64,000 nucleotides of DNA, from contig JAFQOQ010000025.1 of the NCBI GenBank assembly GCA_017403085.1, positions 1 to 64,000 on the forward strand, written 5' to 3'. The position numbers and the translations under genes are program-made. This DNA comes from Alphaproteobacteria bacterium. Its GTDB lineage: Bacteria; Pseudomonadota; Alphaproteobacteria; Rs-D84. Of this stretch, positions 3,958-41,010 are shown piece after piece. How positions within the stretch are numbered: the first letter of the stretch is position 1; the number at the start of each line of letters is the position of its first letter. The notes under the pieces are model-generated. The model saw only the letters and a program-made list of their open reading frames with translations. It searched no databases and had not been told where the DNA came from.

Positions 3958-4512
3958 ATGAAAATGACTAAAATTATCTTGGTGGCTGTATTCGCGGGGT
4001 TGGTTTCCAACGCAAATGCAATAACACCGTATTTTTCTGCGGGCGGGTCACTGGGGATTGGTGGTGGCGACAGCAGTGTGCGCAGTGGCGGATTCTCAGG
4101 TACGGTGGGCGTACGATATAAACTTGCAGATATAAATATGCGCACAGAATTTGAATATAATAATCTGGTGTTTAATAAAAAATATACGTATGCCAGCAAC
4201 GAATATGACTATGATTTAAAAACACAGTTGTATCTGGTAAATGTCTTGGCGGATATATATGGAAATGTGCTGAAATCCGGCCTGCATTTTGGCATCAGCG
4301 TTGGGGCAGCCGACTATAAACGCGATTTGCCAGAATACTGGGATATAGACGACAGGGATAAATTATCGTTCGTATATGGCGCAACCGCCGGCGTCGGTAT
4401 TTATATGCTAGCGGGGCTATATGCCGATGTTGGGGTCAGATATCTGCGCACACTGGACGATGATGCAATAGATAGTTTTAACCCATATTTTGGACTGAGA
4501 TACGGTTTTTAG
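3958..4512 (+). CDS. Small outer-membrane beta-barrel protein
   Basis: The protein has 184 residues. The signal peptide ends near SNANA, then amphipathic strands run to a C-terminal YGF, as expected for an outer-membrane barrel of roughly eight strands (OmpA/opacity-protein-like). It begins two bases after the tdk stop and is probably co-transcribed. The exact subfamily is not recognisable. Confidence 0.75.
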   Translation: MKMTKIILVAVFAGLVSNANAITPYFSAGGSLGIGGGDSSVRSGGFSGTVGVRYKLADINMRTEFEYNNLVFNKKYTYASNEYDYDLKTQLYLVNVLADIYGNVLKSGLHFGISVGAADYKRDLPEYWDIDDRDKLSFVYGATAGVGIYMLAGLYADVGVRYLRTLDDDAIDSFNPYFGLRYGF

Positions 4513-15089: not shown

Positions 15090-15131
15090 TTGACAAAAAC
15101 ACTTGACAAATAGATTGACAAATATTATTTT
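15090..15131 (+). promoter_or_regulatory. Promoter with repeated TTGACA boxes
   Basis: Three TTGACA or TTGAC-like boxes occur (15090, 15103, 15115) ahead of TATTAT/TATTTT. The segment GACAAAA(A)CACTTGACAAAT is almost the same as upstream of the small RNA at 40741-40760, suggesting a shared strong promoter type. Confidence 0.55.
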
Positions 15132-15175: not shown

Positions 15176-15946
15176 ATGTTCAAAAAAATGAAAATGAATA
15201 TGGCAGCACGCAACGTAAAGAATACTAAACGCAAGCCGGCCACCAAGAAAAACAAACGCCCAAGTTTCTGGGGACGCGTATGGGGCGTGATATGCTGGCC
15301 TTTTCGTAAAATCGCGCAATTGGCACGTCGCCTGTGGGCATGGGTCAAGACACTGGATTTAATTGCGTTGGCAAATCTGGCGCTGTTGGTTGCAATTATC
15401 GTTCTGTTTTCTATGCTGATTATCGATATTGTTGGATGCCGCAAAAAACCGGTTGTCGTTATCGCAGAACCGGTTCCTGTTGTGCAACAGGCAAATACAG
15501 CACAAAGTGCCACAACCCGCAAGGTATCACAGCGCAAACCAGTATTGCCATTAAAGCAAAATGCAGTAAAAAACCAAGTGGCAACCGAACGCGCACCAAT
15601 GGCAGTTAATGTTGTACCTGTAAAAAAATGCGAAGTTGAAATCGCAAAGAAGCAGATTGCACGTCAAAACAACAAATTCTATGGCGATGTAATTATCGAC
15701 AGCCGTGGCGCAGGCCGTATGTTGGGCAACGGCGCAATGGTTAAGGGTAATTTGTATTTGCAAAATATGCGCAAATATACATTGCCATGTGATATTCGCG
15801 TCGATGGGAATTTATTCCTGCGCGATGTAAATATGTTGCAGTTTTGTGGTGACTTTGTCGTCACAGGCAACATTTATGTCAGCCCGCGTTCTTCGTTCGG
15901 ACCAATTCCAAAGAACGCAAGACTGGGCGGACAAGTGGTTCTGTAA
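15176..15946 (+). CDS. Inner-membrane protein with basic N-terminus and beta-helical C-terminus
   Basis: The protein has 256 residues. A very basic N-terminal tail (about 45 residues of K/R-rich sequence) precedes one transmembrane helix (about residues 62-85) and a low-complexity linker. The C-terminal domain (about 160-256) has repeated short strands, such as DVIIDSRGAGRML and GDFVVTGNIYVSPRSSFGPIP, reminiscent of bactofilin-like or polymer-forming beta-helices. A cytoskeletal or envelope scaffold role is inference. AAAGGACG precedes the ATG. Confidence 0.6.
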   Translation: MFKKMKMNMAARNVKNTKRKPATKKNKRPSFWGRVWGVICWPFRKIAQLARRLWAWVKTLDLIALANLALLVAIIVLFSMLIIDIVGCRKKPVVVIAEPVPVVQQANTAQSATTRKVSQRKPVLPLKQNAVKNQVATERAPMAVNVVPVKKCEVEIAKKQIARQNNKFYGDVIIDSRGAGRMLGNGAMVKGNLYLQNMRKYTLPCDIRVDGNLFLRDVNMLQFCGDFVVTGNIYVSPRSSFGPIPKNARLGGQVVL

Positions 15947-26437: not shown

Positions 26438-26631
26438 GACTGTGTCCCCCGCGATATCATGGTTTCTATTTGGCGCACAAGGGCACGTTGGCCCTCTAGG
26501 GTTCTTAGTTCTGCATCCGTGGCATTCGGCCCCAGTGTTCGCCCCACAGTTATTCGACGCAAATGCTGTAAAACCGCAATGCCAGATGCACCAGAAAATG
26601 TACGTGTGTAGTGGCGTTCTAAATCTGTCAT
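26434..26631 (-). CDS. Bbp19-like small phage protein
   Basis: The protein has 65 residues. The pattern FSGASGIAVLQHL...GPNATDAELRTLEGQRALVRQIETMI fits the Bbp19 family of podoviruses, which sits next to the portal gene. Its precise role is unknown. It overlaps the portal stop and the next start by 4 nt each. Confidence 0.65.
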   Translation of the reverse strand: MTDLERHYTRTFSGASGIAVLQHLRRITVGRTLGPNATDAELRTLEGQRALVRQIETMISRGTQS

Positions 26632-27869
26632 AGCGTATCACCCCCGGCAAGTGGCGTTGTGCCATTGGCAACCAGTTGAGTAATTGGCGCAACGTATTTT
26701 AATTCTGCGTCACTATTTAACTGGATGGGCGCGATGACGCCACGGCGTGATAGTATTTGCAGGCCACGATCGCACAGGGGTCGAATAAACTCGTGCAAAA
26801 TGCGTCCATATGTCGCACCCAAGACGCGCATCATATCGGCATTACGCGCCAAAATTTCTGTGGCCGTCATTTCTTTATCACTTAACAGCCCCAATCTGTC
26901 GGCAAGCAATGCGTGGCGGATGCGTTCGCGCAGGTCTTTTAATATAATCTGGGACACATCAAAGTCTGCGCCACTGGATAACGGTGTCAGACCAGATGAA
27001 CCAACCGCCTTGGGAATAATTGCACCAGGTGTCAAGTTAATGTTATTCAGGTTGATGACACCATCATCGTCGGCCTGCCAGATTCCAGATACGGCAATGG
27101 TTGCATTCTTTAATACCAATTCAACGACCTTGTTCGCGGTTTTTATATCCGGCAATGCGCGCATAACAGGACTGCGACCGTATGTTTCGCCACTGGCCAA
27201 AGACCACCGGAAAATAATGTACGGATTGGTTTCAAATGTGCCACGGGACACAATATTATTTTCAATATCACCACCAACATCCAGCCATGCGGTAAATTCT
27301 GTGTCGATTAAACTTTGTACCAATTTTAACGGCATATCCATGTCGTTCTTTATCGCGTCACGGATATTTGCAGGTGGCGTCCAGGTTGGAAAACGCGCCA
27401 AGACATCACGCGCGGGCATCGATGTTGTATGAAAAACTGCGTTTGGTAATATCGCAATATCCGACATGGGAATCGCAGTAAATGTAAATGCAGACGATGC
27501 ACCAATTGGCGTTTCTGCCATGAACAGGCACGCCGTACCCAATACAACTAAATCCAGATAACACTGATGTATTACTGTGTAAAAGTTTGAATCGTTCAGA
27601 TTGGCACGTAATGCAACAGTCGCGGCATCAACATCAGGCGACATGGGGCCTTCGGCAGATAGCGACACCCACAAAGATTCAGGTGGTGTCAATAATGTAT
27701 AAATCGATGCAGCCAAATTATCAACCGCATCTGATGCCGTGCCGTCAAATAATGTTGCATTGTCGTCATCGGCCAGTGGGATTGTATAGCGACGCGCATC
27801 GTCCCATCGATTTATCCATGGGCTGCGCATATCCAGGGCGCGTTTATACAAGTTTTGCAAATTTTGCAT
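26628..27869 (-). CDS. Podovirus portal (head-to-tail connector) protein
   Basis: The protein has 413 residues. The start LYKRALDMRSPWINRWDDARRYTIPLAD and the body match the T7 gp8-like connector family, which forms the dodecameric portal that binds terminase and the tail. It is shorter than T7 gp8 (about 536 residues). The ORF is intact. AAGGAGAAACAAC precedes the ATG. It lies downstream of the terminase nuclease half. Confidence 0.85.
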   Translation of the reverse strand: MQNLQNLYKRALDMRSPWINRWDDARRYTIPLADDDNATLFDGTASDAVDNLAASIYTLLTPPESLWVSLSAEGPMSPDVDAATVALRANLNDSNFYTVIHQCYLDLVVLGTACLFMAETPIGASSAFTFTAIPMSDIAILPNAVFHTTSMPARDVLARFPTWTPPANIRDAIKNDMDMPLKLVQSLIDTEFTAWLDVGGDIENNIVSRGTFETNPYIIFRWSLASGETYGRSPVMRALPDIKTANKVVELVLKNATIAVSGIWQADDDGVINLNNINLTPGAIIPKAVGSSGLTPLSSGADFDVSQIILKDLRERIRHALLADRLGLLSDKEMTATEILARNADMMRVLGATYGRILHEFIRPLCDRGLQILSRRGVIAPIQLNSDAELKYVAPITQLVANGTTPLAGGDTL

Positions 27870-27900
27870 GTTGTTTCTCCTTTGTTTTGGTTATGTGTTG

Positions 27901-28749
27901 TTAAATCTTGAAATTCGTATTCGCAGCAAACATTCGTGTTGTGGTGCCTGATGGGCGTATCGGGCTGGGCGTTTGCACAATTGCGCCCGCAAGCGCATCA
28001 ATACCGTCGTCATGTCCCGTCATGCCCAATGGCGAAAAGCCCAACATTTCAGATAACAGTGGCGTTTGCTGAATACGGGCGTGCGCATACATGCGACCAG
28101 TTGATAAAATCGGTTCGATAGCGTTAAGTATTCGTTCTGATTTGGATTTGTTGTTTGATATTCTTTGGATGTATATGTTCTGGCCATGCCGACATGCGGT
28201 ATTACGCAGAATATCTGGCAGGCCACCGCCGATACCATTTGTTTCAACCGAAATGCGCCGAATATCACGATTACGCATAAATTCCAGCACCATTTCGCAT
28301 TGACGTGACAATGGATATTCTTCTTCGTCTGGGACAGACAAATATAAAATATCATGCACAAATACATTGCGCGATGCATCGTCGCGATATAGTAAAACGC
28401 ATGTACTGTTATCGCGCCGTTTGCGCCCTGTTGATGGATCCCAATATAATACCATACCGGTAATTTGATGCGTCCCAATTCGGGCAGTACGAACATCAAA
28501 TTCTGAATCGTAAAAATGTATGCCACCAGGATCCAAACGCGCCTTGTCCGGTGAAACAAATTCCAGCATCATTTGGGCGGAAAAATGTCGTGGTCCGACG
28601 GTCAATCGCATTTGTTCAATCTTTTCCAGTGGAAATAATTGGGGCCAAATGGGGACACCATCGGCCGAAACAATTGGAATTCTTAGTGTTTTATAGCCGG
28701 TCAAAAAAGGCGTTGAAAAACCAATTTTTTTATATACTATATCAGACAT
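27901..28749 (-). CDS. Terminase large subunit, nuclease half (split gene)
   Basis: The protein has 282 residues if it starts at 28749 (MSDIVYKKIGFSTPF). The sequence picks up exactly where the ATPase half at 32068 stops: GYKTLRIPI..PIWPQLFPLEKIEQMRLTVGPRHFSAQMML is the usual linker after GTPHTxDTIY. The RNase-H-like nuclease acidic residues are in place: YWDPS, VETNG and GHDDGIDALAGA. The start codon shares the palindrome CATG with the divergent dnaB start, and its ribosome-binding site (GGGAG, 8 nt upstream) lies inside dnaB. The two halves total about 483 residues, a normal terminase length, so nothing appears lost. It probably works by assembling with the other half. Confidence 0.85.
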   Translation of the reverse strand: MSDIVYKKIGFSTPFLTGYKTLRIPIVSADGVPIWPQLFPLEKIEQMRLTVGPRHFSAQMMLEFVSPDKARLDPGGIHFYDSEFDVRTARIGTHQITGMVLYWDPSTGRKRRDNSTCVLLYRDDASRNVFVHDILYLSVPDEEEYPLSRQCEMVLEFMRNRDIRRISVETNGIGGGLPDILRNTACRHGQNIYIQRISNNKSKSERILNAIEPILSTGRMYAHARIQQTPLLSEMLGFSPLGMTGHDDGIDALAGAIVQTPSPIRPSGTTTRMFAANTNFKI

Positions 28750-30316
28750 GGACTTTACTCCCAAAACTTTACCGACAAATTTAGAGGCCGAACAAGCCGT
28801 TCTGGCGGCGGTACTGATGAACAACCGCGCATTGGAACGCGTGTCTGAATTCTTAAATTCGGAACATTTTTCACATCCTGCACACAAGGAAATCTATAAA
28901 TTGGCCGAACGTCAATTTGCGGCCGGTATTCCGTTCGATATCATTACCGCCAAGAATTATTTGGATCAACAAGGAACACTGGAATCTGTTGGCGGGGTCG
29001 ATTATCTGACCAAATTGTCCAGTGCGGGCGCAACAGTTGTTAATGTTGAACAATACGGACGTATCGTATATGAAAATGCGCTACGTCGCGATTTGATTTC
29101 ATTGGGGCAATCCATTGTCGATAAAGCTTTTGTCGAAGATCTGGACAACCCAGTGGCGCGTCAAATCGAATTGGCCGAACAAGAATTGTTTAATATGGCC
29201 ACCGCAGGTTCGTCCGAACGTGAAGTGACCGCAATTTCAACCGCATTGCAAAACGCATTGGCCGAGGCAGAAATCGCATACAAGGCAGATGGACAGTTGT
29301 CGGGTCTGACCACGGGGTTGAACGCACTAGACAAATCAATCAGCGGTCTGCACCATTCTGACCTGATTATTATCGCAGGTCGTCCGGCGATGGGAAAAAC
29401 CACACTGGCCATGAATATTGCTTTTAATGCGGCAAATGCAATTGCATATGGGCGCGCAAATAAAAACTATAAGGGCGCAGTTGTGTTTTTCAGTCTTGAA
29501 ATGTCAGCATCACAATTGGCGGCACGTGTATTGTCGTCACAATCCAAGGTGCCCGCATCGGCAATGCGCGAAGGAACACTGACCGACGAAGATTTCTTGA
29601 AAATGTCACAGTATTCTGCCGCGATCGGCAAGGTACCATTGTTTATTGATGACACGCCCGGGATGTCTGTGCCAATGATGCGAACGCGCGCACGACGGCT
29701 GGCACGCAAACATGATGGAATTGCACTGATTGTGATTGACTATCTGCAACTGATGACCGCCCCAGGTGGCAAACGTAGTGATAACCGCGTACAGGAAATT
29801 TCTGAAATTACAAGAGGCCTGAAAATGCTGGCCAAGGAATTAGATGTGCCGGTTATTGCACTGTCGCAGTTGTCACGTAGTGTTGAAGCGCGCGATGATA
29901 AACGACCACAATTGGCAGACCTGCGTGAATCTGGTTCTATTGAACAAGACGCGGACATTGTTATGTTTACGTATCGCGAAGAATATTATCTGCAAAACCG
30001 CGACCCGTCGGAAAGATTGTCAAACACAACCAATAATTCCATGGTCGAAAGTTGGCAAAAACGTCTGGAACGCGCACGTGGCAAGGCAGATATTATCATC
30101 GGAAAAAACCGTCATGGACGTCCAGAAACTGTTCGCACGGCGTTCTTTGGCGATTATAGTTTGTTCGATAATCTGGATGAATTTGAAGCACGTGGCGCAA
30201 ATAATGAATTTGCACAACCTGCCCCAACGGTGTCCGCCAGCAGTCTGGGACCAGATGCAGAATATGAACCAACACCAATTGACGCAGACGCAATCCCTGA
30301 CGATATGCCACTGTAA
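28748..30316 (+). CDS. dnaB: Replicative DNA helicase DnaB
   Basis: The protein has 522 residues. It unwinds DNA at the replication fork. It has the N-terminal domain LEAEQAVLAAVLMNNRALE, Walker A GRPAMGKTT, Walker B LIVIDYLQLM, then a QLSRSVEARDDKRPQLADLRESGSIEQDAD block and IIGKNRHGRPETVRTAFF. It looks like the housekeeping enzyme, not a phage primase-helicase. It lies between the two halves of the phage terminase on the opposite strand. A TTGAAA-N16-TACTAT promoter ends 7 nt before ATG, so the mRNA may be leaderless. Confidence 0.95.
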   Translation: MDFTPKTLPTNLEAEQAVLAAVLMNNRALERVSEFLNSEHFSHPAHKEIYKLAERQFAAGIPFDIITAKNYLDQQGTLESVGGVDYLTKLSSAGATVVNVEQYGRIVYENALRRDLISLGQSIVDKAFVEDLDNPVARQIELAEQELFNMATAGSSEREVTAISTALQNALAEAEIAYKADGQLSGLTTGLNALDKSISGLHHSDLIIIAGRPAMGKTTLAMNIAFNAANAIAYGRANKNYKGAVVFFSLEMSASQLAARVLSSQSKVPASAMREGTLTDEDFLKMSQYSAAIGKVPLFIDDTPGMSVPMMRTRARRLARKHDGIALIVIDYLQLMTAPGGKRSDNRVQEISEITRGLKMLAKELDVPVIALSQLSRSVEARDDKRPQLADLRESGSIEQDADIVMFTYREEYYLQNRDPSERLSNTTNNSMVESWQKRLERARGKADIIIGKNRHGRPETVRTAFFGDYSLFDNLDEFEARGANNEFAQPAPTVSASSLGPDAEYEPTPIDADAIPDDMPL

Positions 30317-30343
30317 TTATTTTGCTTGCTAAGTCTTTTAAAA

Positions 30344-30362
30344 TTGACTATTATTTTGTCAA
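30344..30362 (+). promoter_or_regulatory. Inverted repeat before the double-HTH regulator
   Basis: TTGAC-N9-GTCAA lies 23 nt upstream of the regulator start and just before its AAGGAGA site. This is a plausible operator for autoregulation. Confidence 0.5.
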
Positions 30363-30384
30363 GAAATCTTAAGGAGACTTGCAC

Positions 30385-31392
30385 ATGGCCCAAGAAGAAA
30401 TCATCTTTCCTAATAATATCAGAAATATTCGTTTGGCAAACGGCATGAAAATGACCGAACTGGCACGTCAGGCAGGACTTAGTTTGTCCGCAGTGTCCAA
30501 AATTGAAAAAGGTGTGCGACGCCTGAATCAGAAACAATTGCTGAATATCTGTAATATCTTGGGTTGCAAATTGTCTGATATTTTCATCAAGGAATCTGAT
30601 GAAGTGGCAGACCAATGGCAAAGCGAAATTAAACGACGCCTGACCGATAATGAAAATAGCGGACTGAAAATATTCGGCAGTGGGTTACGCAAAATTCGCC
30701 AAAAATCTGGCAAAACAATCGCACAGGCCGCAAAAGACGCTGGGATGACACTGTCTGTGTATCACAAGATAGAAGTTGGCCAACGTGAAATCTATGTAAA
30801 TGAAATCGAACCGTTGGCACAATCTTTCGCAATGAGCGCGGAAAAACTGTTCGACGAAGTGGCAGAACTGTATAAATCTGGCGCATTAACCAAACAGATT
30901 AACAAGGTTAAAGAACGTGTAAAATCTGTGTTGGTACCCGGGAATCCTTTGTCGGGCATCGACATGCACGGCAGTTTATATGGCGCAAAATTGTATGATA
31001 GCGCACGAAAAAAACTGGTTCCTGTGTTCGGAAATCCTGCGGGCAAGGCAATCGCGTTCAAAAAATCTGATAAAACCATGATTGTGTCCCCACTGTCATT
31101 AGAAGGACGTCAGGGTATATATGCCGTTATTCCAAACGCAAAGCGTTTGGGTGGAATTATCCCAGAAAAATCATACGTGTTGGCAGATGCAATGACGCCT
31201 GCACAAGTCGGTGATATGGCCGTGTGTATTGATACAGACTTTGATTCATTGGACGAAGAAACGTCTGCGGTGGCACATGTTGTTAGTGTTAAACAGGATT
31301 CCAAAGGCAAAGTATATGGTCATGTGTGCGCCCCAGATGAAAAAATTTCCGGGAAAACAATGCACAAGGTTATCATGATTATTACAGAATAA
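30385..31392 (+). CDS. Transcription regulator with two XRE HTH domains
   Basis: The protein has 335 residues. HTH 1 (about 8-65) contains MTELARQAGLSLSAVSKIEKG and HTH 2 (about 98-155) contains KTIAQAAKDAGMTLSVYHKIEVG. A C-terminal part (about 190-335) has strands and an S24/LexA-like look but no clear Ser-Lys dyad that I can verify. ATG at 30385 is chosen for AAGGAGA. It sits between the two terminase halves, so it may control the virion cluster, the next gene, or itself. Confidence 0.75.
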   Translation: MAQEEIIFPNNIRNIRLANGMKMTELARQAGLSLSAVSKIEKGVRRLNQKQLLNICNILGCKLSDIFIKESDEVADQWQSEIKRRLTDNENSGLKIFGSGLRKIRQKSGKTIAQAAKDAGMTLSVYHKIEVGQREIYVNEIEPLAQSFAMSAEKLFDEVAELYKSGALTKQINKVKERVKSVLVPGNPLSGIDMHGSLYGAKLYDSARKKLVPVFGNPAGKAIAFKKSDKTMIVSPLSLEGRQGIYAVIPNAKRLGGIIPEKSYVLADAMTPAQVGDMAVCIDTDFDSLDEETSAVAHVVSVKQDSKGKVYGHVCAPDEKISGKTMHKVIMIITE

Positions 31393-31420
31393 ATCACGCG
31401 CCACCAAGGAGAGAGAGCAT

Positions 31421-32071
31421 ATGAAAGCAAAAGCCATCGCAACAGCACAAAGATTGTTAAATCTGTACCGCCAAGAACATGTTATTGTCGGTGGGTGGGG
31501 TGCTGTTAATCGGGTATTTGCAGCCGAGGCCACAGATGATGTAATCGCAGAATTAGAATTGTTGCCAACAGGAAAAATGTTGGCGCAACATATTGAAAAT
31601 CTGCGCAGCGGAAAAACACCGATGGATTCAATCGATTCTGACTTGCTGCCATATGGTGGCATGATGGGCGAAGCAATTGCGTCTGTAAAATTGACCCAGG
31701 CACAAATGCAGGAACTGGAAAACGGAATTGAGCATTTTGTTCCCGATCAGACCGGATTAGATGCAATTCAGAATATGTCCGTCGTTCAACAGTTTGGTGA
31801 TGAATGGCCTGTTGCAATTCGTGCCGCGTTGGCTGCGAAACCCGCGTTGCAGGCAAAATGGACGCTGGTTATGCAGACATACAATGCGTATCGCCTGTGG
31901 AATCAAGCAAATAATATTTTAAGCCAGCCATTATCCGAACGTATGCGTGCCGAGGTTCAGGCAGACATGCCAGAATACGAAACATATCTGCCAATGTTCG
32001 GGGATGCGGGCAACGAATTATTGGGTAAATTACGCAATTTTATCAGCAGTATGAAAAATGAAGTGGCCTAG
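31421..32071 (+). CDS. Unrecognised helical protein between the terminase halves
   Basis: The protein has 216 residues, acidic and mostly helical, without TM helices or a signal peptide. No known motif is visible. AAGGAGAGAG precedes the ATG and it lies 28 nt after the double-HTH gene, so they form an operon. Its stop overlaps the stop of the terminase ATPase half by 4 nt (convergent), which places the right-hand edge of the inserted block exactly here. Confidence 0.7.
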   Translation: MKAKAIATAQRLLNLYRQEHVIVGGWGAVNRVFAAEATDDVIAELELLPTGKMLAQHIENLRSGKTPMDSIDSDLLPYGGMMGEAIASVKLTQAQMQELENGIEHFVPDQTGLDAIQNMSVVQQFGDEWPVAIRAALAAKPALQAKWTLVMQTYNAYRLWNQANNILSQPLSERMRAEVQADMPEYETYLPMFGDAGNELLGKLRNFISSMKNEVA

Positions 32072-32673
32072 TCTTCGTCACATGTGCGGTATATGGTGTC
32101 GTTCGTGTGCGGCGTGCCGATGTAAATCATTGTTCCGTTGGGCGATAGTATAAAATCCAATTCGCGCAAACGTTCGCGCAGGTTTTCTCGCTTTTGAGCA
32201 GTGTTTGATGTATTTGGCACTTCTACGTCATCGCATATAATTAAATCTGCACGCATGCCGGTTATGTTGCCATGTACCCCCTGGCAGATTACAGATGGTT
32301 CGCGAATTCCGATTGGACGATTTACTGTTATGTGCCCTGTTGCCCACTCTTTTTTGACGCGCGGTATTAAATCGGTACAGCGTGGATGATTTTCCAAAAT
32401 ATGACGTATGTGCGATACCATACGACTGGCAAGACCATTTTCTGCAGACAATATCAAAATACGTGTTTCTGGGTGCAGATACAAAACACAGGCCGCAAAC
32501 ACGCCAACCACCGTTGATTTACCAGAATGACGAAACGCCATCAGCAATCCACGATGGGGCGCATTTGTCCAAACATCATACAGAAATGACATTATTTGAC
32601 GATGGTGTGCAGGTGTTTCAAAGCCAAGAATCTGATTCCATTCGTCTAAAAATTTATAAAAGTCCGTAATCAT
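32068..32673 (-). CDS. Terminase large subunit, ATPase half (split gene)
   Basis: The protein has 201 residues from ATG 32673. It powers DNA packaging. It carries Walker A AFRHSGKSTVVG, Walker B ADLIICDDVEV and coupling motif MIYIGTPHTND, and then ends DTIYRTCDED at a TAG. In related T7-like terminases the chain continues directly into the linker and nuclease, which here is a separate gene at 27901-28749. The start overlaps the tail-fibre gene by 20 nt. Both halves are free of internal stops, which argues for maintained function. Confidence 0.87.
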   Translation of the reverse strand: MITDFYKFLDEWNQILGFETPAHHRQIMSFLYDVWTNAPHRGLLMAFRHSGKSTVVGVFAACVLYLHPETRILILSAENGLASRMVSHIRHILENHPRCTDLIPRVKKEWATGHITVNRPIGIREPSVICQGVHGNITGMRADLIICDDVEVPNTSNTAQKRENLRERLRELDFILSPNGTMIYIGTPHTNDTIYRTCDED

Positions 32674-33202
32674 CACTGTCTTCGTTTGGTGCGGGTTCGG
32701 TAATGCTGCCGTAATCATTGATTAAGTATGGGCGCGCATTTTCTAAAACAGAAACCAGATTTCGATACAGCCCCAACACCGCCCCGCCCGACAATTTGTC
32801 TTCGATGACAGAATGCGTGTAATCAATCAAAGATTTTATATTGTCGTGCGTGTTCGCCCATTCTGTGACATCCAGATTAATTGTTTGTACGTCTTGTAAT
32901 GCCGCCAGCAAAAAGTTAAAATCCAGGTTTAAATGTTCTGGATCAATTTGGCCGGTGGGCTGGTAATCAATCGTGCGCGACAGGGATACCTGTCGAAAAA
33001 TATCTATCTGGGTGTTGGCCGATGGCGCAACCTCAAACACCACATTGCCACCGGAAAAATCTTCGTTTGGCATAACGGTATATGCAGGTAAATCAGACAA
33101 GGATTCATTCAGCGCAACACGTATATCTGCGGTTTGAAAAAATGGAAATGCGAATGCGAATTCAGTTGTCGTACCATCCGCAACGTAAGATATTTTGTAC
33201 AT
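32654..33202 (-). CDS. Tail-fibre N-terminal anchor (T7 gp17-like), no distal domain
   Basis: The protein has 182 residues. The start YKISYVADGTTTEFAFAFPFFQTADIRVAL and the region SLSRTIDYQPTGQIDPEHLNLDFNFLLAALQ match the T7 tail-fibre anchor domain that binds the tail tube. The receptor-binding C-terminal part found in phage fibres is absent; the protein ends in an acidic tail. It may be an adaptor for a separately encoded fibre, or a degenerate fibre. Confidence 0.8.
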   Translation of the reverse strand: MYKISYVADGTTTEFAFAFPFFQTADIRVALNESLSDLPAYTVMPNEDFSGGNVVFEVAPSANTQIDIFRQVSLSRTIDYQPTGQIDPEHLNLDFNFLLAALQDVQTINLDVTEWANTHDNIKSLIDYTHSVIEDKLSGGAVLGLYRNLVSVLENARPYLINDYGSITEPAPNEDSDDYGLL

Positions 33203-33229
33203 CTTATGTCCCCTATGTTTTTATTAAAA

Positions 33230-33577
33230 CTAGCCAACAATATCTTCAAAGCGTGACAGCCAATTTTTTAATAAGTTCGGTTTGGTCGCCTTTGCTTTTT
33301 TTAACTTTTCTAGGTTTGCTTTGCGCTTTGATTCATATGGTTGTTCTGTTTCTGATTTTATGCGCTTTAACACGGCGCCTTCGGTCATGCTGCGCCCCGT
33401 CATGCCAGACGCACCATATTTAGCACGCTGGGCCGCCAAAGCTTTTTTAACCAGGTTATTTTTTTCAGCATCATCAGCAGCCATTTGTGCCAAAATTTCT
33501 TTGCGCTGCGATTTAGCCGCTTTCTTTGCATCTTTGTAATCTAATAATTCCGTGACGTCGGATACGATTTGTCCCAT
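33230..33577 (-). CDS. Small internal-virion-like protein (gp14-type)
   Basis: The protein has 115 residues. It is lysine and alanine rich and helical, with AAQRAKYGASGMTGRSMTEGAVLKRI, a pattern found in small virion proteins that follow the nozzle gene in T7-like phages. The large internal core proteins (T7 gp15, gp16) are absent from the cluster. Confidence 0.55.
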   Translation of the reverse strand: MGQIVSDVTELLDYKDAKKAAKSQRKEILAQMAADDAEKNNLVKKALAAQRAKYGASGMTGRSMTEGAVLKRIKSETEQPYESKRKANLEKLKKAKATKPNLLKNWLSRFEDIVG

Positions 33578-33601
33578 GTAAATCTCCCTTGGGTTGTAAT
33601 G

Positions 33602-35317
33602 TTAAACAGAGTACCAGCCGTGCATAGTGACGGATAATACGGTTAATGGATATGTATCAGCGCCGTGTATCGTCCATGGCGCATTTATGCAATCGCGAAT
33701 TGTACCCAACTGAGACAGTGATACATCACCACAATAGCCACTGTGTCTGTCGTTATAGATATCATTCGGTAATGTAATGCGCGAACCGTTAATTGATATG
33801 GATTTGGTATTCCAAACGCGTGCAGATATCTTGCGCAATTTTAATCTGTGCGGATTGTGTCCTGATGCACGAAACGGTATGGCAGATGCGCGAAATGCAA
33901 AATTATATTTTCCAGCGTCTTGCATTGCGGTGGCGTCAAATCGTTCCAGACATGCCATACCATCACGCGACACAACAACATACGTCACACCATCAATCGA
34001 TGCGACAGATACAAAATTACCGTGCGTTTGGTACATCCCCCACGCAGATATCCCCAGTGCAGAATTCTGATTTAGCACTGCCATTTTGCCATCAGAACGC
34101 ACAACAAATAACTGATGCGTGGCGGCGTTATATGACAAATCTGTTGGCGATGTAATTAAGTGTTTTGCAAATGCGCACAAGTCGTTCGCGTTATAGTTTT
34201 CGTTTAGTTCATCCAGGCTTAATTCACGAATATCACGACCGCCTGATGACATGAATACGGTTGCGCCTTCTATCTTTTGTGGTGGTAAATAGCGCCCCAT
34301 AAACGAGCCAACCGATGTATGCTGTTTAATATCAACCGATGACGGTGTTAATGGCTTGTTAGATATCGCCCATTCGCCCACAGACGTTAATATCTGCAAA
34401 TTATCACTGCTGACGACGGTACAAATTTGCTGGCGTTGCTGGGATAACAAGGTTATAAATATCGCTTCGTCATCCAGACCAGTGCCAACATCAAAATTAT
34501 TATGTTGGCCAACCTTGGATAGCCATACGCCACCGGGCCAATCGCGCGACCCGCCAAAAACCAATCTATCCTGGTGAAATGTTATACTGCATGGCCAGCC
34601 ACGACGCGTACTAAATACAGATTCGCGCCAATCAGATATTGGGGCCGTTGGTAAAGTATATGCACCATTTGTATAGGCAACGACCTGGGTTGGACTGGTG
34701 TATTCGGTAATAACCCACTGTTTGTCCAACAAATACAAACGGCCATTAACATTATCTGGGGTCCAGAAATCTTGATTGGTTGTAAATGTCGCGAAATTAT
34801 TTCCAGCACTGTTGGATGTCACAGTTATTTTGATATCTGACGCGTCATCAAATTTCATAAACGGAATATTTAACGTCATATCTGCATCGTTGCGCGAAAA
34901 AGAAAACTGCAATAAATCAAAGCCATTGGCCCCAAGGCGCAACGTATATGGCGGAAAATCAGGATGAACAAATATCATCGTGCCAAAACGCTGGGCATAT
35001 TGCAGATGCGATAGTGCATCATAATCCCATGGCGACTGTAACATTTGATACAGCGCATCGTTGTGAAAGATATAAATATACCCATCCATCAACGCCAAGA
35101 TATAGTCTTGTGATTCTGCAACCGAAAACGGTATCAGGCGTGCCGCAGACGGCAAATCTGATACATGTATCAGACCGGCACGACGCGACAAGCCACCACC
35201 AGATAATACGTCCATATTTTCTAGTTTTGATAAACCGTTGATATCATCACGTGAATAAAATTCAGGTGCAACTTCGCCATTGGCAAACGATGTTTGCGTT
35301 TTTATAAAATCTGCCAT
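33602..35317 (-). CDS. Tail tubular protein B (T7 gp12-like nozzle)
   Basis: The protein has 571 residues. It starts with FIKTQTSFANGEVAPEFYSRDDINGLSKLENMDVLSGGGLSRRAGL, the standard opening of gp12-like nozzle proteins. It closes the short tail. It is shorter than T7 gp12 (about 790). The ORF is intact. Confidence 0.85.
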   Translation of the reverse strand: MADFIKTQTSFANGEVAPEFYSRDDINGLSKLENMDVLSGGGLSRRAGLIHVSDLPSAARLIPFSVAESQDYILALMDGYIYIFHNDALYQMLQSPWDYDALSHLQYAQRFGTMIFVHPDFPPYTLRLGANGFDLLQFSFSRNDADMTLNIPFMKFDDASDIKITVTSNSAGNNFATFTTNQDFWTPDNVNGRLYLLDKQWVITEYTSPTQVVAYTNGAYTLPTAPISDWRESVFSTRRGWPCSITFHQDRLVFGGSRDWPGGVWLSKVGQHNNFDVGTGLDDEAIFITLLSQQRQQICTVVSSDNLQILTSVGEWAISNKPLTPSSVDIKQHTSVGSFMGRYLPPQKIEGATVFMSSGGRDIRELSLDELNENYNANDLCAFAKHLITSPTDLSYNAATHQLFVVRSDGKMAVLNQNSALGISAWGMYQTHGNFVSVASIDGVTYVVVSRDGMACLERFDATAMQDAGKYNFAFRASAIPFRASGHNPHRLKLRKISARVWNTKSISINGSRITLPNDIYNDRHSGYCGDVSLSQLGTIRDCINAPWTIHGADTYPLTVLSVTMHGWYSV

Positions 35318-35329
35318 AATTGCCCCCTG

Positions 35330-35848
35330 TTAAAAACGTACGTTAATCAAAGAAAAATTATCAATCGCGGTGGTGGTGGTGGTTGTACTGTCTATGAATT
35401 TCGCAGATTGCATTTCTGATTCATATAATGCCGCCAACATGCGAAATACGCCCTGGTCACCAATTAGCGGGATACAGAATTCCATCGCCAGTTTTGTTGC
35501 GGCCAACGAGACAAAATAACTGGGGAATTTTTCAGGCGCCACGCGCACAACAGATAATATTTTCATATTTTCTGATGGTGCATGGATTAAATTACCTACG
35601 ATCTGCCCAGAACATTTAATTACACGCAAAACATCGCTGGGAATTACAAAATCACCATCGGTCGTTTTGTTTAAATCATATGTCTTGGTTGCAAAACGCC
35701 ATGGATGTGATGCCAATAAACTGTCTATGACCGGGTCAAATAATGTGCGCGATAATTGCGCAGATGCACTGTCATCTGTTAAAGATTGTATCGGTGCTTC
35801 GCCCAATTTTAGCAAAGCCATCGAACATAAATCTATTTTTGTAAGCAC
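35330..35848 (-). CDS. Tail tubular protein A (T7 gp11-like adaptor)
   Basis: The protein has 172 residues. CSMALLKLGEAPIQSLTDDSASAQLSRTLFDPVIDSLLASHPWRFA is a hallmark of the gp11-like portal-tail adaptor. It lies immediately before the nozzle gene, as in T7. Confidence 0.87.
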   Translation of the reverse strand: MLTKIDLCSMALLKLGEAPIQSLTDDSASAQLSRTLFDPVIDSLLASHPWRFATKTYDLNKTTDGDFVIPSDVLRVIKCSGQIVGNLIHAPSENMKILSVVRVAPEKFPSYFVSLAATKLAMEFCIPLIGDQGVFRMLAALYESEMQSAKFIDSTTTTTTAIDNFSLINVRF

Positions 35849-35923
35849 TGTTGCCCCCTTGTTCTATTATAAAAAATAGGCTGGCACTTAAATGTGCCAA
35901 CCCAATCCAGAAAATATACTATG

Positions 35924-36154
35924 TTATGCCAATGCAACCGTTGTCACATTTAATTCTGTGATGTTGATTTGCTTTATAGCAGTGCTATCAGAAGCATTGA
36001 TGATGACAATGTCGCCAATGTTCATCAATGTTTTTACACTGTTAAAATAACCATTCGCAGCAATTGTGCTTAATGTTTCTGGCGCACTGTAATGCCACAA
36101 TGTGAATCCATTTGCATACGCAATGACAGATAAATTTTTATTCTGAAAAGCCAT
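35924..36154 (-). CDS. Small virion protein downstream of capsid (possible decoration protein)
   Basis: The protein has 76 residues with beta-rich sequence (NGFTLWHYSAPETLSTI, NIGDIVIIN). Small proteins of this kind sit directly after the capsid gene in many podoviruses. A decoration or head-stabilising role is inferred from position only. Confidence 0.55.
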   Translation of the reverse strand: MAFQNKNLSVIAYANGFTLWHYSAPETLSTIAANGYFNSVKTLMNIGDIVIINASDSTAIKQINITELNVTTVALA

Positions 36155-36189
36155 CTGTTTATTCCTTTTGGTTTATGTTAATTGTGACC

Positions 36190-37011
36190 CTAGGCTGCGT
36201 CAGCGCATTTAACGCGAACAATACCATCACCGTCAATCAGAACAGCGCCCTGGGACATGCTGTTGCTGATAAAGTGTGCAGCGCGTTCGCCGTGCCATGA
36301 AATATCTGTTTTAACTTCTTGACCACATGCATGACCAATGCTGGATGCGTGATAGATAAAGCAGTCGCGATTTGATTCTGACAGTGGCAAACCATTGCAC
36401 AATACCCACGTAATACCCAACCATTTGCGGGCCTCGCAGCCATTTAACAGTGGTGTTGTATTGCCAACGTAATCCGCAGATACGAATTCATCCATGGACA
36501 ATAATTCATTCCACTGATGTACGCCAACAACGGCAAAACGACGGCCATCATCTGGGACATCGTTCGAATTCAAGATTTCAACCGCAGACAAAACCAAATC
36601 TTTGGTCAGGCCAGTTGAATAATCGCCAACGTTCGCTGTTGCGGAATTCATCGCAGAAATGATTAATTCATCTGTTTTGCGACCTAATGCATATGCACCC
36701 GCAGATGCAACAACACGACGTTCGTCGATATTTGTCTTTAATTCATCCAAACTATCAACCCAATCACCGGCATAGTAATCCTGCAACATGCATTCAACCG
36801 GTTCATGATTCAAATTCATCACAGGGACAATACCGTGACGTGATTTTGTGCTGGCGGTGCCTTTGCCAACCTTTTGAAAAGTAGTAGATGCGCCAATTAC
36901 GCCTGTTTTACTGCGAATAGTTGAACGCAATTTTGTTCCCATTTGCTGATAAGCCAAATGGACGTCTGCTTCGAATTGTTTTACAAAAACATTATCGATT
37001 GAAACGGACAT
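36190..37011 (-). CDS. Podovirus major capsid protein
   Basis: The protein has 273 residues. The opening IDNVFVKQFEADVHLAYQQMGTKLRSTIR and the segment DYYAGDWVDSLDELKTNIDERRVVASAGAYALGRKTDELII match capsid proteins of T7-like/alphaproteobacterial podoviruses (HK97 fold). The ORF is intact. The capsid gene is separated from the gene upstream by tandem terminators, so it needs its own promoter. Confidence 0.85.
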   Translation of the reverse strand: MSVSIDNVFVKQFEADVHLAYQQMGTKLRSTIRSKTGVIGASTTFQKVGKGTASTKSRHGIVPVMNLNHEPVECMLQDYYAGDWVDSLDELKTNIDERRVVASAGAYALGRKTDELIISAMNSATANVGDYSTGLTKDLVLSAVEILNSNDVPDDGRRFAVVGVHQWNELLSMDEFVSADYVGNTTPLLNGCEARKWLGITWVLCNGLPLSESNRDCFIYHASSIGHACGQEVKTDISWHGERAAHFISNSMSQGAVLIDGDGIVRVKCADAA

Positions 37012-37148
37012 TATTAAATCCTTTGGTTAAAAATTAATTTAATTGATGATTTATCTTTGTGATGCGGTTGTGCAAATAAATGCGCCACATAACAAAAAAA
37101 ATAATTCGGGGCCGAATATAAAACGCAACTTGTCCGAATAAAAAATTC

Positions 37149-37213
37149 AGTCAGACTGTGATATCATCTGACTGAAATTTTTAATAAAAACGCCCGCGAA
37201 TAATCGCAGGCGT
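37149..37213 (-). terminator. Tandem terminators between histone-like and capsid genes
   Basis: On the minus strand two hairpins occur: ACGCCTGCG...CGCGGGCGT followed by T's, then TTCAGTCAGA...TCTGACTGAA followed by TTTTTT. A third small stem (CCCCA/TGGGG) is at about 37223-37240. They would isolate capsid transcription from the gene upstream. Confidence 0.75.
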
Positions 37214-37248
37214 AAAAACAAATTACCCCAACACTGTGGGGAATATAA

Positions 37249-37644
37249 TTATTTTTTCTTTGCTACTTTTTTCGCAGGTGCTTTTTTTGCAACTGGCTTT
37301 TTTGCAGCAACTTTTTTAACTGCTACTTTTTTCGCAGGTGCTTTCTTTGCAACTGGTTTTTTTGCAGCAACTTTTTTAACCGCTACTTTCTTTGCAGGTG
37401 CTTTCTTTGCAACTGGTTTTTTTGCAGCAACTTTTTTAACTGCTACTTTCTTTGCAGGTGCTTTCTTTGCAACTGGTTTTTTTGCAGCAACTTTTTTAAC
37501 TGCTACTTTCTTTGCAGGTGCTTTTTTTGCAACTGGTTTTTTTGCAGCCGCTTTCTTTGCAGGTGCAGCTTTCTTTTCAGCTGGTTTCACAACTGCTTTT
37601 TTTGCAGCCGCTTTTTTAGCTGGTTTTAAGAATGTGAATGCCAT
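37249..37644 (-). CDS. Histone-H1-like lysine/alanine repeat protein
   Basis: The protein has 131 residues, almost wholly built from K, A, V and P. A 20-residue unit ([20 protein letters not shown]) is repeated four to five times. Such PAKKA repeats bind DNA as in H1 tails and bacterial AlgP/HctB-like proteins. It is encoded inside the virion cluster between scaffold and capsid genes, so DNA compaction in particles or in the producing cell is an attractive inference. AAGGAGAGAAG precedes the ATG. Confidence 0.8.
37252..37560. repeat. 60-bp tandem repeat coding the KKA units
   Basis: Five successive 60-bp blocks are nearly identical, with only synonymous-type T/C changes (such as ctttttt versus ctttctt). 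Very low divergence suggests recent expansion or gene conversion. Confidence 0.9.
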
Positions 37645-37669
37645 TCTTCTCTCCTTCTTATTTTTGCAT

Positions 37670-37690
37670 AGAACAAATTCGTTTTGTTCT
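37670..37690. promoter_or_regulatory. Inverted repeat upstream of the histone-like gene
   Basis: AGAACAAA-N5-TTTGTTCT, 26 nt before the ATG. A closely similar element (AGAACAAATATGTATGTTCT) is at 40630-40649 before a small HTH gene, making a shared operator likely. Confidence 0.55.
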
Positions 37691-37747
37691 TACTTTATAT
37701 TTTATCGGAAACACAAAAATTAGTAAAGAAGAAAGTGCATTTTTTTA

Positions 37748-38404
37748 TTACGAATATAATTTTTTAAATCCGTTTTCTATTTTTCTGATGTATTCTGCGT
37801 CGTTGTCACGCCAATATTTTGGATCGCGCATCATGCGTCGCAAGTCACTGTCTGATAAATTTTCTGAAATATTTTTATCTGTTTGAACAGTTGGTTCGAT
37901 TGATTGCATCATCTTATAAATGCTTTGGATTCCCTGGGGTGTAGCGCACAGTGCATCAAATGCATCATGTGGTAAAAACTTTTGACCAAACGAATTTATT
38001 GCACGCATTGCATCGTTCATTTTATCTGTTCCACCAAAAAAGTTTTTTAATTCTGTCATTGCAGAAATTTCATCACGCGCACTAAATAAGTCTGATACAA
38101 CTGGTGATAAAAATTCATTTGCAATTTCATAAATTTTTGCAACTTGTGTTTTTGTTAAACCAATTTCATGAAATTTTTTTCTGACATTTTCATCATCAAA
38201 TAATTCATCTGTTGGATATTCAGACGAATCGTCCGGGACACCAATTGCACGATTAAATTTTAAACGCGCGTCATCATCAGATTCAGAATCAGGAACTGAT
38301 ATCATCGAACCAATTTTCTTTTCCAATGCAAGATACGATTTTAATAACGAATCTGAATTTAATGTACCGTCTTGATTTTGAAATTTTTCAGGAATCTTTT
38401 CCAT
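37748..38404 (-). CDS. Podovirus scaffolding protein
   Basis: The protein has 218 residues, acidic and helical. The C-terminal motif MMRDPKYWRDNDAEYIRKIENGFKKLYS is characteristic of T7-type scaffolds, and it contains GQKFLPHDAFDALCATPQGIQSIYKM. It templates capsid assembly. ATG at 38404 follows AAGGGGGGAAAT. The order scaffold then capsid is as in T7, apart from the inserted histone-like gene. Confidence 0.75.
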   Translation of the reverse strand: MEKIPEKFQNQDGTLNSDSLLKSYLALEKKIGSMISVPDSESDDDARLKFNRAIGVPDDSSEYPTDELFDDENVRKKFHEIGLTKTQVAKIYEIANEFLSPVVSDLFSARDEISAMTELKNFFGGTDKMNDAMRAINSFGQKFLPHDAFDALCATPQGIQSIYKMMQSIEPTVQTDKNISENLSDSDLRRMMRDPKYWRDNDAEYIRKIENGFKKLYS

Positions 38405-38597
38405 TATTTCCCCCCTTGTGTTCATTCGAACGACGTAAAAAATATATGCCGCCCAATGTAAAAATTGCCTGTAACATAGTGAATATATCGGAATCGCCAA
38501 CAAGATATGCAGCAATCGCAGATATAATCCCAGCCCCAGATATAATGTATGTGCGATACCCAGACAGATAACCGCCCTTGATTATTTTATTTGCCAT
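38388..38597 (-). CDS. Small membrane protein, holin candidate
   Basis: The protein has 69 residues. Two hydrophobic segments (about 17-33 and 39-54) are followed by a charged tail. Its position between a cell-wall hydrolase and virion genes fits a holin. It overlaps the scaffold start by 17 nt. Confidence 0.6.
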   Translation of the reverse strand: MANKIIKGGYLSGYRTYIISGAGIISAIAAYLVGDSDIFTMLQAIFTLGGIYFLRRSNEHKGGNNGKDS

Positions 38598-38607
38598 GAA
38601 ATTCGCC

Positions 38608-39018
38608 TTATAAATAAAACAAGATGCCATCAATGTCTGCAATATATCCGCGCGATGTCGCCCACGATGGTATTGTGTCGGCATAATGAAAACGCGTGGC
38701 ACCATAACACGTATCTGGCAATACACCCGACAGCATGCGCTGTGCGGTGCGCAGACACATCTGAAATGCACGATTGTTTGCGGGTACCGATAAATATTCA
38801 TGATTGGCAGAATTAACATCGTTGGCATCAAAAATGTTTTTGTCCGAAATAATATCTAAGACACTTAAACCAGATGCACGTGATATATTCGCAATCATTG
38901 ACGCAAACGCTTCGACGGCGGTCAATGACGAACCATGTGTCTGGGCATAGATGATACGAGCGATTTTATATGCCGGCGAAATCGTGGCGTCGGGATTCTT
39001 TATCAGTGTAAGTTGCAT
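38608..39018 (-). CDS. SleB-like cell-wall hydrolase (endolysin candidate)
   Basis: The protein has 136 residues. The region around AQRMLSGVLPDTCYGATRFHYADTIPSWATSRGYIADIDGILFY resembles the Hydrolase_2/SleB domain used as an endolysin in alphaproteobacterial phages and gene-transfer agents. There is no signal peptide, so release would need the neighbouring holin candidate. It is the first gene of the virion cluster on the minus strand. Confidence 0.65.
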   Translation of the reverse strand: MQLTLIKNPDATISPAYKIARIIYAQTHGSSLTAVEAFASMIANISRASGLSVLDIISDKNIFDANDVNSANHEYLSVPANNRAFQMCLRTAQRMLSGVLPDTCYGATRFHYADTIPSWATSRGYIADIDGILFYL

Positions 39019-40357: not shown

Positions 40358-40603
40358 TTATTCGCGACCGGTTTCAGGCGGATCAATAAATTTGGTAAAA
40401 TCTTGGATTTTTGCCCCTGTTGAAGACAATATTTTGGATATACTGTTCGTAGATGGCCATCGTGGTTGGCCTTCTTTGGACCAGCGTTTGCTTTTGTTAA
40501 ATGTAGTTGGATCAAGACCGCTACATTTTGCCAGACCAGAACAAGACATACCGTGTTCTGTTGCAAAGCGTTCTATTGCACGCCACACATCTTCATGTGT
40601 CAT
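40358..40603 (-). CDS. Stand-alone HTH domain of an S24-type repressor
   Basis: The protein has 81 residues. CSGLAKCSGLDPTTFNKSKRWSKEGQPRWPSTNSISKILSSTGA is the N-terminal HTH found in alphaproteobacterial S24 (CI/LexA-like) repressors. The C-terminal peptidase and dimerisation domain is missing, so it cannot be inactivated by self-cleavage. An inverted repeat, AGAACA-N8-TGTTCT, lies just upstream and a similar one precedes the histone-like gene of the virion cluster. Confidence 0.78.
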   Translation of the reverse strand: MTHEDVWRAIERFATEHGMSCSGLAKCSGLDPTTFNKSKRWSKEGQPRWPSTNSISKILSSTGAKIQDFTKFIDPPETGRE

Positions 40604-40740: not shown

Positions 40741-40781
40741 TTGACAAAACACTTGACAAATCGATAAATATGTATTACATT
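40741..40781 (+). promoter_or_regulatory. Promoter of the candidate small RNA
   Basis: TTGACA (40741) and a second TTGACA (40753) precede TAAATA and TACATT -10-like boxes. AAAACACTTGACA is also the -35 context of tRNA-Glu (51456-51468). Confidence 0.6.
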
Positions 40782-40782
40782 T

Positions 40783-40976
40783 CGATTCGTCAGAGGGGCA
40801 AGCCTGATGACCAGATGTGAAAACATCTGTGGGGTTCAGAGGTTCAGACTCCCTCCTACATTCTCTCTCCTCTGGACTCTGGACCCCAGAATAAAGTTTA
40901 GAGTGCCCAATTTCTTTTTCTCCTTTCCTTCCTTTCGGGGCACTCGGAAATACCGCCGGCGACGGCGGTGTTTTTC
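40783..40976 (+). ncRNA. Candidate small RNA with pyrimidine-rich loops
   Basis: Between a strong promoter and a terminator lies about 190 nt with no ribosome-binding site or plausible ORF. Stems: CAGATGT/ACATCTG (40812-40829), a long rod GGGGTTCAGAGGTTCAGA with TCTGGACTCTGGACCCC (40831-40887), GAGTGCCC/GGGCACTC (40901-40945), then the terminator ACCGCC/GGCGGT plus T's. Two loops are almost pure C/U and contain CUCCCUCCU and CUCCUUUCC, able to pair with Shine-Dalgarno sequences. This is typical of trans-acting riboregulators in alphaproteobacteria. I cannot place it in a known family. Confidence 0.65.
40952..40976 (+). terminator. Terminator of the candidate small RNA
   Basis: ACCGCCGGCGACGGCGGTGTTTTTC. 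A further hairpin, AAATCCCCAATGTTTGGGGATTT, at about 40987-41012 serves both directions. Confidence 0.85.
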
Positions 40977-41010
40977 TTTTATTAAAAAATCCCCAATGTT
41001 TGGGGATTTT

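Follow-up and report, generated by a model that had tools for sequence, protein, structure and literature searches.

The window analysed here comprises 64,000 nucleotides at the start of a contig from an alphaproteobacterial genome of 1.04 Mb in 34 contigs. The genome belongs to the order Rs-D84, which includes Enterousia and has reduced genomes of about 0.7-1.6 Mb throughout (PMC12306168). The window contains a podoviral virion gene cluster and, next to it, the gene of a predicted non-coding RNA of about 195 nt, which is flanked on one side by a divergently transcribed HTH gene and on the other by a gene for a small membrane protein with a SHOCT domain and then by priA. The respective features are compiled in Table 1.

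Table 1. Features of the RNA locus and the virion gene cluster, with candidate target sites
Feature	Position	Strand	Remarks
Non-coding RNA, predicted transcript	40782-40980	+	Start predicted from promoter, end from terminator
Upstream TTGACA of conserved twin -35 motif	40741-40746	+	12 nt 5' of second TTGACA
-35 element TTGACA	40753-40758	+	Present in relatives too
-10 element TACATT	40776-40781	+	17-nt spacer after TTGACA; present in relatives too
Hairpin P1	40789-40811	+	Fold, covariation
Hairpin P2	40812-40829	+	Fold; variable, several relatives without P2
Hairpin P3	40830-40888	+	Presents loop 1; fold, covariation
Loop 1 with closing bases, CUCCCUCCUACAUUCUCUCUCCUC	40849-40872	+	No change in 31 genus sequences
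Hairpin P4	40901-40945	+	Presents loop 2; compensatory changes in 6 of 8 pairs
Loop 2, AAUUUCUUUUUCUCCUUUCCUUCCUUUC	40909-40936	+	Contains CUCCUUU, the complement of AAAGGAG
Intrinsic terminator, T-tailed	40946-40975	+	Sequence and fold
Divergent HTH gene, Cro/C1-like	40358-40603	-	Weak Pfam match; identity mostly 72-100% where adjacent to the RNA in the genus
Podoviral virion gene cluster	26628-39018	-	Portal/head-tail connector, terminase halves, tail, capsid, scaffold, endolysin; interrupted by host genes
Major capsid gene	36190-37011	-	Part of virion cluster
Terminase large subunit, ATPase half	32068-32718	-	PHROG 38 positions 270-460
Terminase large subunit, nuclease half	27901-28749	-	PHROG 38 positions 469-713
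Candidate target: start of AKP-rich histone-like gene, AAGGAGAGAAGAAUG	37642-37658	-	Complementary to loop 1
Candidate target: start of ORF 31421-32071, AAGGAGAGAGAGCAUAUG	31403-31423	+	10 nt complementary to loop 1

The initial annotation of the window had described a small RNA gene with a strong promoter, three stems, two loops composed of C and U only and a terminator, but without an ORF. The promoter was recovered as TTGACA and TACATT at a distance of 17 nt, along with the second TTGACA; it is kept in relatives, nearly all of which possess the twin motif, and the terminator was found as well. The stems, in contrast, number four (P1 to P4) in addition to the terminator hairpin. The two pyrimidine stretches originally named, CUCCCUCCU and CUCCUUUCC, are both present but represent parts of the much longer loops CUCCCUCCUACAUUCUCUCUCCUC and AAUUUCUUUUUCUCCUUUCCUUCCUUUC, and loop 1 contains ACA, contrary to the description as a C/U-only loop. 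The fold of the RNA strand was more stable than that of all 200 shuffled sequences (z -5.0), and that of the opposite strand was unremarkable when compared with shuffles (z -1.9). With respect to the lack of an ORF, mechanically derived ORFs do run through the region, but species differ in their frames and sequences, and indels disrupt the frame. A reading frame conserved across relatives, which had been named in advance as evidence against an RNA gene, was sought in the genus alignment, and no common frame was found.

A BLAST comparison with 59 relatives yielded long matches in 33 genomes of the genus 'Candidatus Enterousia' (genomes of about 1 Mb), including the source genome, and 33 of the 35 genus genomes in this first search contain the RNA. 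In an alignment of 31 genus sequences, loop 1 (CUCCCUCCUACAUUCUCUCUCCUC) is invariant at 33 of 33 columns and loop 2 (AUUUCUUUUUCUCCUUUCCUUCCUUUC) at 26 of 26, whereas elsewhere only 25 of 165 columns are invariant and 140 vary. Covariation was examined in four helices against 500 shuffles, with the exclusion of P2 because in some species this hairpin is absent or aligned incorrectly. In the alignment, 18 pairs changed on both sides (mean of 7.8 in shuffles) and 61 doubly changed cells (15.0 in shuffles) were counted, and the covariation score amounted to 0.209 (0.132 in shuffles); none of these values was reached by any of the 500 shuffles. Pairing was observed in 93% of the cells and dropped to 37-54% when the partners were slid by one to three columns; in P4 alone, six of the eight pairs are compensated and pairing is complete (100%). 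The conservation, the covariation, the separate promoter and terminator and the lack of a conserved ORF thus strongly support a real structured non-coding RNA gene at this locus.

The RNA is previously uncatalogued and matches no Rfam family: a search of the window with the gathering cut-offs gave no relevant match, and a permissive search of the locus (E <= 10) revealed no alphaproteobacterial sRNA family, no 6S RNA and no phage pRNA family. An identity with 6S RNA was rejected, as RF00013 matched neither the locus nor any other part of the source genome but was detected in the control genomes. Moreover, no sRNA from the order Rs-D84 was found in a search of the literature.

The covariance search with a model built from relatives, which the initial annotation had suggested as a check, was performed with a profile of hairpin P3 (model R1). 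This model, representing the first loop-bearing hairpin with loop 1, found matches in 168 of the 201 order genomes (113 of the 126 good ones) and in 13 of 23 genera. The matches occur nearly always as a single copy per genome and, with one exception, within the same family; among 385 genomes from the class, only those of the own genus were matched. When 21 genomes, the majority of them from other families, were searched permissively, 12 weak matches with E values from 5e-6 to 0.9 were obtained. Nine of these (L196-L198 and L200-L205) represent a hairpin whose loop follows the same plan, usually with CCCUCCUUAUUUUCUCUCUCCUC replacing CCCUCCUACAUUCUCUCUCCUC, and the other three (L199, L206 and L207) are doubtful. 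Weaker yet recognisable forms of the RNA are accordingly present in four other families, and the shared build of their loops identifies loop 1 as the ancestral unit. Loop 2 is regular within the family, and outside of it only doubtful instances were detected. In the non-Enterousia genera of the family, the stem sequences are unrelated to those of Enterousia and loop 1 is exact; the contig scan behind this set was queried with the exact 24-mer, so that the identity of loop 1 is there partly due to selection, but the BLAST and model searches are free of this selection and agree with an exact loop 1. The RNA is kept by nearly all sequenced members of this family of gut bacteria with very small genomes, with loops that are less changeable than the surrounding protein genes. 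In L198 and L201 (family f4), the 3' half of the loop-1 hairpin is partly duplicated (TCTCTCTCCTCGA) a short distance downstream.

The proposed neighbourhood of the RNA, the HTH gene and the virion cluster holds throughout the genus, in which the gene order capsid, BirA, winged-helix-like ORF, HTH and RNA is conserved. The cluster additionally encodes a T7-type capsid assembly protein, and the nuclease half of its terminase shows a match to the T7 RNase H-like domain just under the Pfam cut-off. The capsid protein was detected in 178 of the 201 genomes and in 22 of the 23 genera of the order, and the cluster is therefore old and domesticated in the manner of a gene transfer agent; it is a candidate for such an agent with T7-like ancestry. 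The terminase is also split in families f2 (L202 and L204) and f5 (L196), and in these three sampled genomes the RNA hairpin is located between the ATPase and nuclease halves on the same strand, preceded in L196 by its own TTGACA promoter. In L198 and L201, the ATPase half is immediately followed by the hairpin. Accordingly, the RNA is physically associated with the cluster in several lineages. In several other genera, the RNA is located beside housekeeping genes, and in the genome G576 (98% complete, 10 contigs) it is intact with both loops, the promoter and the terminator, whereas neither capsid nor portal was found in this genome. Its persistence in G576 makes it unlikely that silencing of the virion cluster is the whole role of the RNA, which is probably wider.

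Both loops carry CCU/CUCC elements, and the ribosome-binding motifs ahead of the starts in these genomes are AAAGG, AAGGA and AGGAG; AAAGG precedes 98 of 434 genes and was counted four times in the control interval. In loop 2, an unpaired CU-rich segment is thus complementary to the Shine-Dalgarno sequences of its own genome. The target scan covered 858 genes from the window and from 400 kb each of the genomes G437 and G003 (about 40% of these two genomes). Complements of loop 2 of at least 9 nt were detected in 46 of the 858 start regions versus three of 858 control positions inside genes. The reversed loop gave 24 sites, and shuffled pyrimidine loops gave 24 on average and 73 at most; the count for loop 2 is therefore above the shuffle mean but below the best shuffles, and its specificity is limited. 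The earlier proposal that the loops could block the ribosome-binding sites of many mRNAs thus appears plausible with regard to the fit of loop 2 to AAAGGAG, although some shuffled loops fit more start regions. In the suggested target prediction for the cluster, the virion start regions pair better than those of other genes, a difference reached by one of 60 shuffles. Across all sampled genes, loop 1 showed no excess of pairing over shuffles. Taken together, the pairing statistics are no more than suggestive of an anti-Shine-Dalgarno role.

Two candidate targets were selected from the scan. The first is the AKP-rich histone-like gene, the start of which reads AAAGGAGAGA in nearly all genus loci examined; its mean pairing energy with loop 1 is -18.7, compared with -14.2 for dinucleotide shuffles, and none of 150 shuffles reached the observed value. 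This gene extends from 37249 to 37644 between the capsid and scaffold genes. The second is an envelope gene which we take to be a periplasmic SIMPL-domain gene. In G437, its start region AAGGAAAGGAGAAA forms 14 contiguous pairs within a nearly perfect 22-nt duplex with loop 2 (-30.1 kcal/mol), and elsewhere, including the source genome, AGGAGAGAGAAU pairs with loop 1 and relatives have similar sites; the gene start in the source genome is AGGAGAGAGAAUAUG, which pairs with loop 1. The pairing energy with the best loop was reached by only three of 150 shuffles. Since both targets were selected once the scan results were known, and since orthologs do not count as independent evidence, these cases are regarded as leads. 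A regulon of exported proteins was rejected, as its enrichment among the predicted targets was equal with shuffled loops. The succession of GGAG and AGAG was found at four start regions versus 1.1 expected (p 0.027), a weak effect that was defined post hoc. A weak tblastn search for Hfq, which covered parts of the genomes, gave no convincing match.

The exact 24-mer of loop 1 was also detected in five IMG/VR contigs (L302-L306). Three of them (L302, L305 and L306) represent the host virion cluster itself, and the others are different elements: the phage contig L303 (231 kb, loop at 4113-4136) and L304 (31 kb, loop at 7907-7930), which carries an Erf-like annealing gene. A shorter pattern additionally identified 22 nt of loop 1 at about 11647-11668 in L311, a contig of 36 kb encoding a podoviral tail protein, and loop 1 is also carried by the 4-kb contig L061 with HNH-like genes that were named by eye. 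In all four elements (L303, L304, L311 and L061), loop 1 is presented by a hairpin with arms unrelated to those of the host, and the stability of these hairpins was reached by arm shuffles in 0, 0, 0 and 1 of 200 trials. L303 and L311 possess consensus TTGACA-17-TATAAT promoters in the right orientation, each with a T-run after a hairpin. The phage-borne copies may act like the host RNA. In six further contigs (L307-L310, L312 and L313), a 19-mer or degenerate form of loop 1 is not presented by a hairpin and was judged to occur by chance. Among cultured phages, the search for relatives produced nothing beyond a weak match of low complexity in Bacteroides phages, and among plasmids it produced none.

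The explanation that we favour, with moderate confidence, is that the RNA is an anti-Shine-Dalgarno riboregulator, a single-copy sRNA that silences several mRNAs in trans. It would be transcribed independently from its one copy, and the covarying stems would hold the two long unpaired pyrimidine loops open. The loops would then most likely pair with the purine-rich Shine-Dalgarno and start regions (AAAGGAGA and GGAGAGAGAA) of several mRNAs, and this pairing would block the loading of ribosomes and thereby repress translation, with the histone-like gene of the linked virion cluster and the SIMPL-domain envelope gene as candidate targets. The invariance at all 24-27 loop positions argues against this model, as it exceeds the need of a short seed. 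If the model is true, one ancient RNA would hold a central place in the post-transcriptional regulation of a minimal genome. A tentative extension, which is possible rather than probable, regards the 24-nt loop as the stand-alone functional unit of an order-wide riboregulator of gut Alphaproteobacteria that controls the domesticated, gene-transfer-agent-like podovirus and envelope genes. Unrelated phages (the 231-kb contig, the podophage and the Erf-encoding element) would encode small hairpin RNAs in which stems of their own present this loop, and would thereby mimic the regulator or subvert it; consensus promoters precede two of these hairpins. With its link to a podovirus-derived cluster and the reappearance of its loop on phage stems, the RNA offers a case in which the imitation of a host RNA by phages can be tested.

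The proposed principle is known from alphar14/NfeR1, in which conservation is confined to loops with anti-Shine-Dalgarno motifs and NfeR1 silences mRNAs by pairing with their start regions (PMC10746234, PMC3927594). Like the RNA described here, alphar14/NfeR1 (models SmelA075 and SmelA099; Rhizobiales) is alphaproteobacterial and consists of several hairpins with diverging stems and ultraconserved anti-Shine-Dalgarno loops. However, its three hairpins each present the loop CCUCCUCCC, which is absent here, and its loops measure 9 nt, whereas those of the present RNA measure 24-27 nt and differ from each other; the latter is furthermore distinguished by its occurrence in another order, the lack of an Rfam match, the linkage with a virion cluster and the copies of loop 1 in phage contigs. 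The cyanobacterial Yfr1 RNA (54-69 nt) displays an 11-nt motif, ACUCCUCACAC, between two stem-loops and shares with the present RNA the single ancient copy per genome, the small-genome lineage, an invariant unpaired pyrimidine-rich stretch and a Rho-independent terminator (PMC2190773). Unlike Yfr1, the RNA of about 195 nt carries its two loops within hairpins and has another motif, and ACUCCUCACAC is absent. Since the motif tests for alphar14/NfeR1 and Yfr1 failed and no Rfam family matched, the RNA is classed as a new family that probably follows a known principle.

The main rival to the anti-Shine-Dalgarno reading is that the loops bind a protein, with Rho, S1, a cold-shock protein or one specific to the order as possible partners, and that the RNA titrates or carries this protein in a manner comparable to CsrB and CsrA. 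Rho prefers YC dinucleotides. Such a decoy would account for the invariance of the whole loops beyond the CCU seeds and for the lack of genome-wide loop-1 pairing above shuffles, and it predicts that loop 1 alone is copied on foreign stems, as observed in the phage contigs. The close fit of loop 2 to the local Shine-Dalgarno sequences speaks against it, and no partner protein was identified in a protein search limited to the weak tblastn for Hfq on part of the sequence; we consider this explanation unlikely.

A role confined to the virion cluster, either as a translational brake on particle production or as part of a packaging motor like the phi29 pRNA, appears distinctly improbable. Such a role would agree with the synteny throughout the genus, with the order-wide occurrence of both cluster and RNA, with the positions between the terminase halves or downstream of the ATPase half, and with the loop-1 hairpin encoded by the podophage contig L311, but it is contradicted by the intact RNA in G576 and by the housekeeping neighbourhoods in other genera. 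The likeness to phi29 pRNA, a structured RNA gene associated with the packaging genes of podovirus-like elements, is one of location only, and its placement between the two parts of the terminase in L196, L202 and L204 is only circumstantial evidence for a component of the packaging motor. In contrast to phi29 pRNA, the RNA has no complementary loops, since two all-pyrimidine loops cannot engage in loop-loop contacts of the pRNA type, and neither a sequence match nor a covariance match to the phage pRNA family was obtained at E <= 10.

It is very improbable that the RNA acts as an antisense regulator with a single dedicated mRNA target. The long invariant loops and the loop-2 duplex at the SIMPL gene start of G437 would suit such a function, but the source genome contains no complement of loop 1 at up to three mismatches, sites resembling loop 2 are no commoner there than in the control, and the SIMPL start pairs with different loops in different species. 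That the locus yields an mRNA encoding a small protein, or is an inverted repeat that arose by chance, is hardly credible, and both readings were rejected, as the ORFs that can be drawn across the region share no conserved frame and the covariation is far above that of shuffled and slid controls.

The HTH protein encoded beside the RNA is usually more conserved within the genus than the neighbouring BirA, and it is possible that this protein regulates the RNA. A threefold TTGACA(A) motif resembling the twin promoter motif of the RNA is located at 15091-15123, upstream of the ORF 15176-15946.
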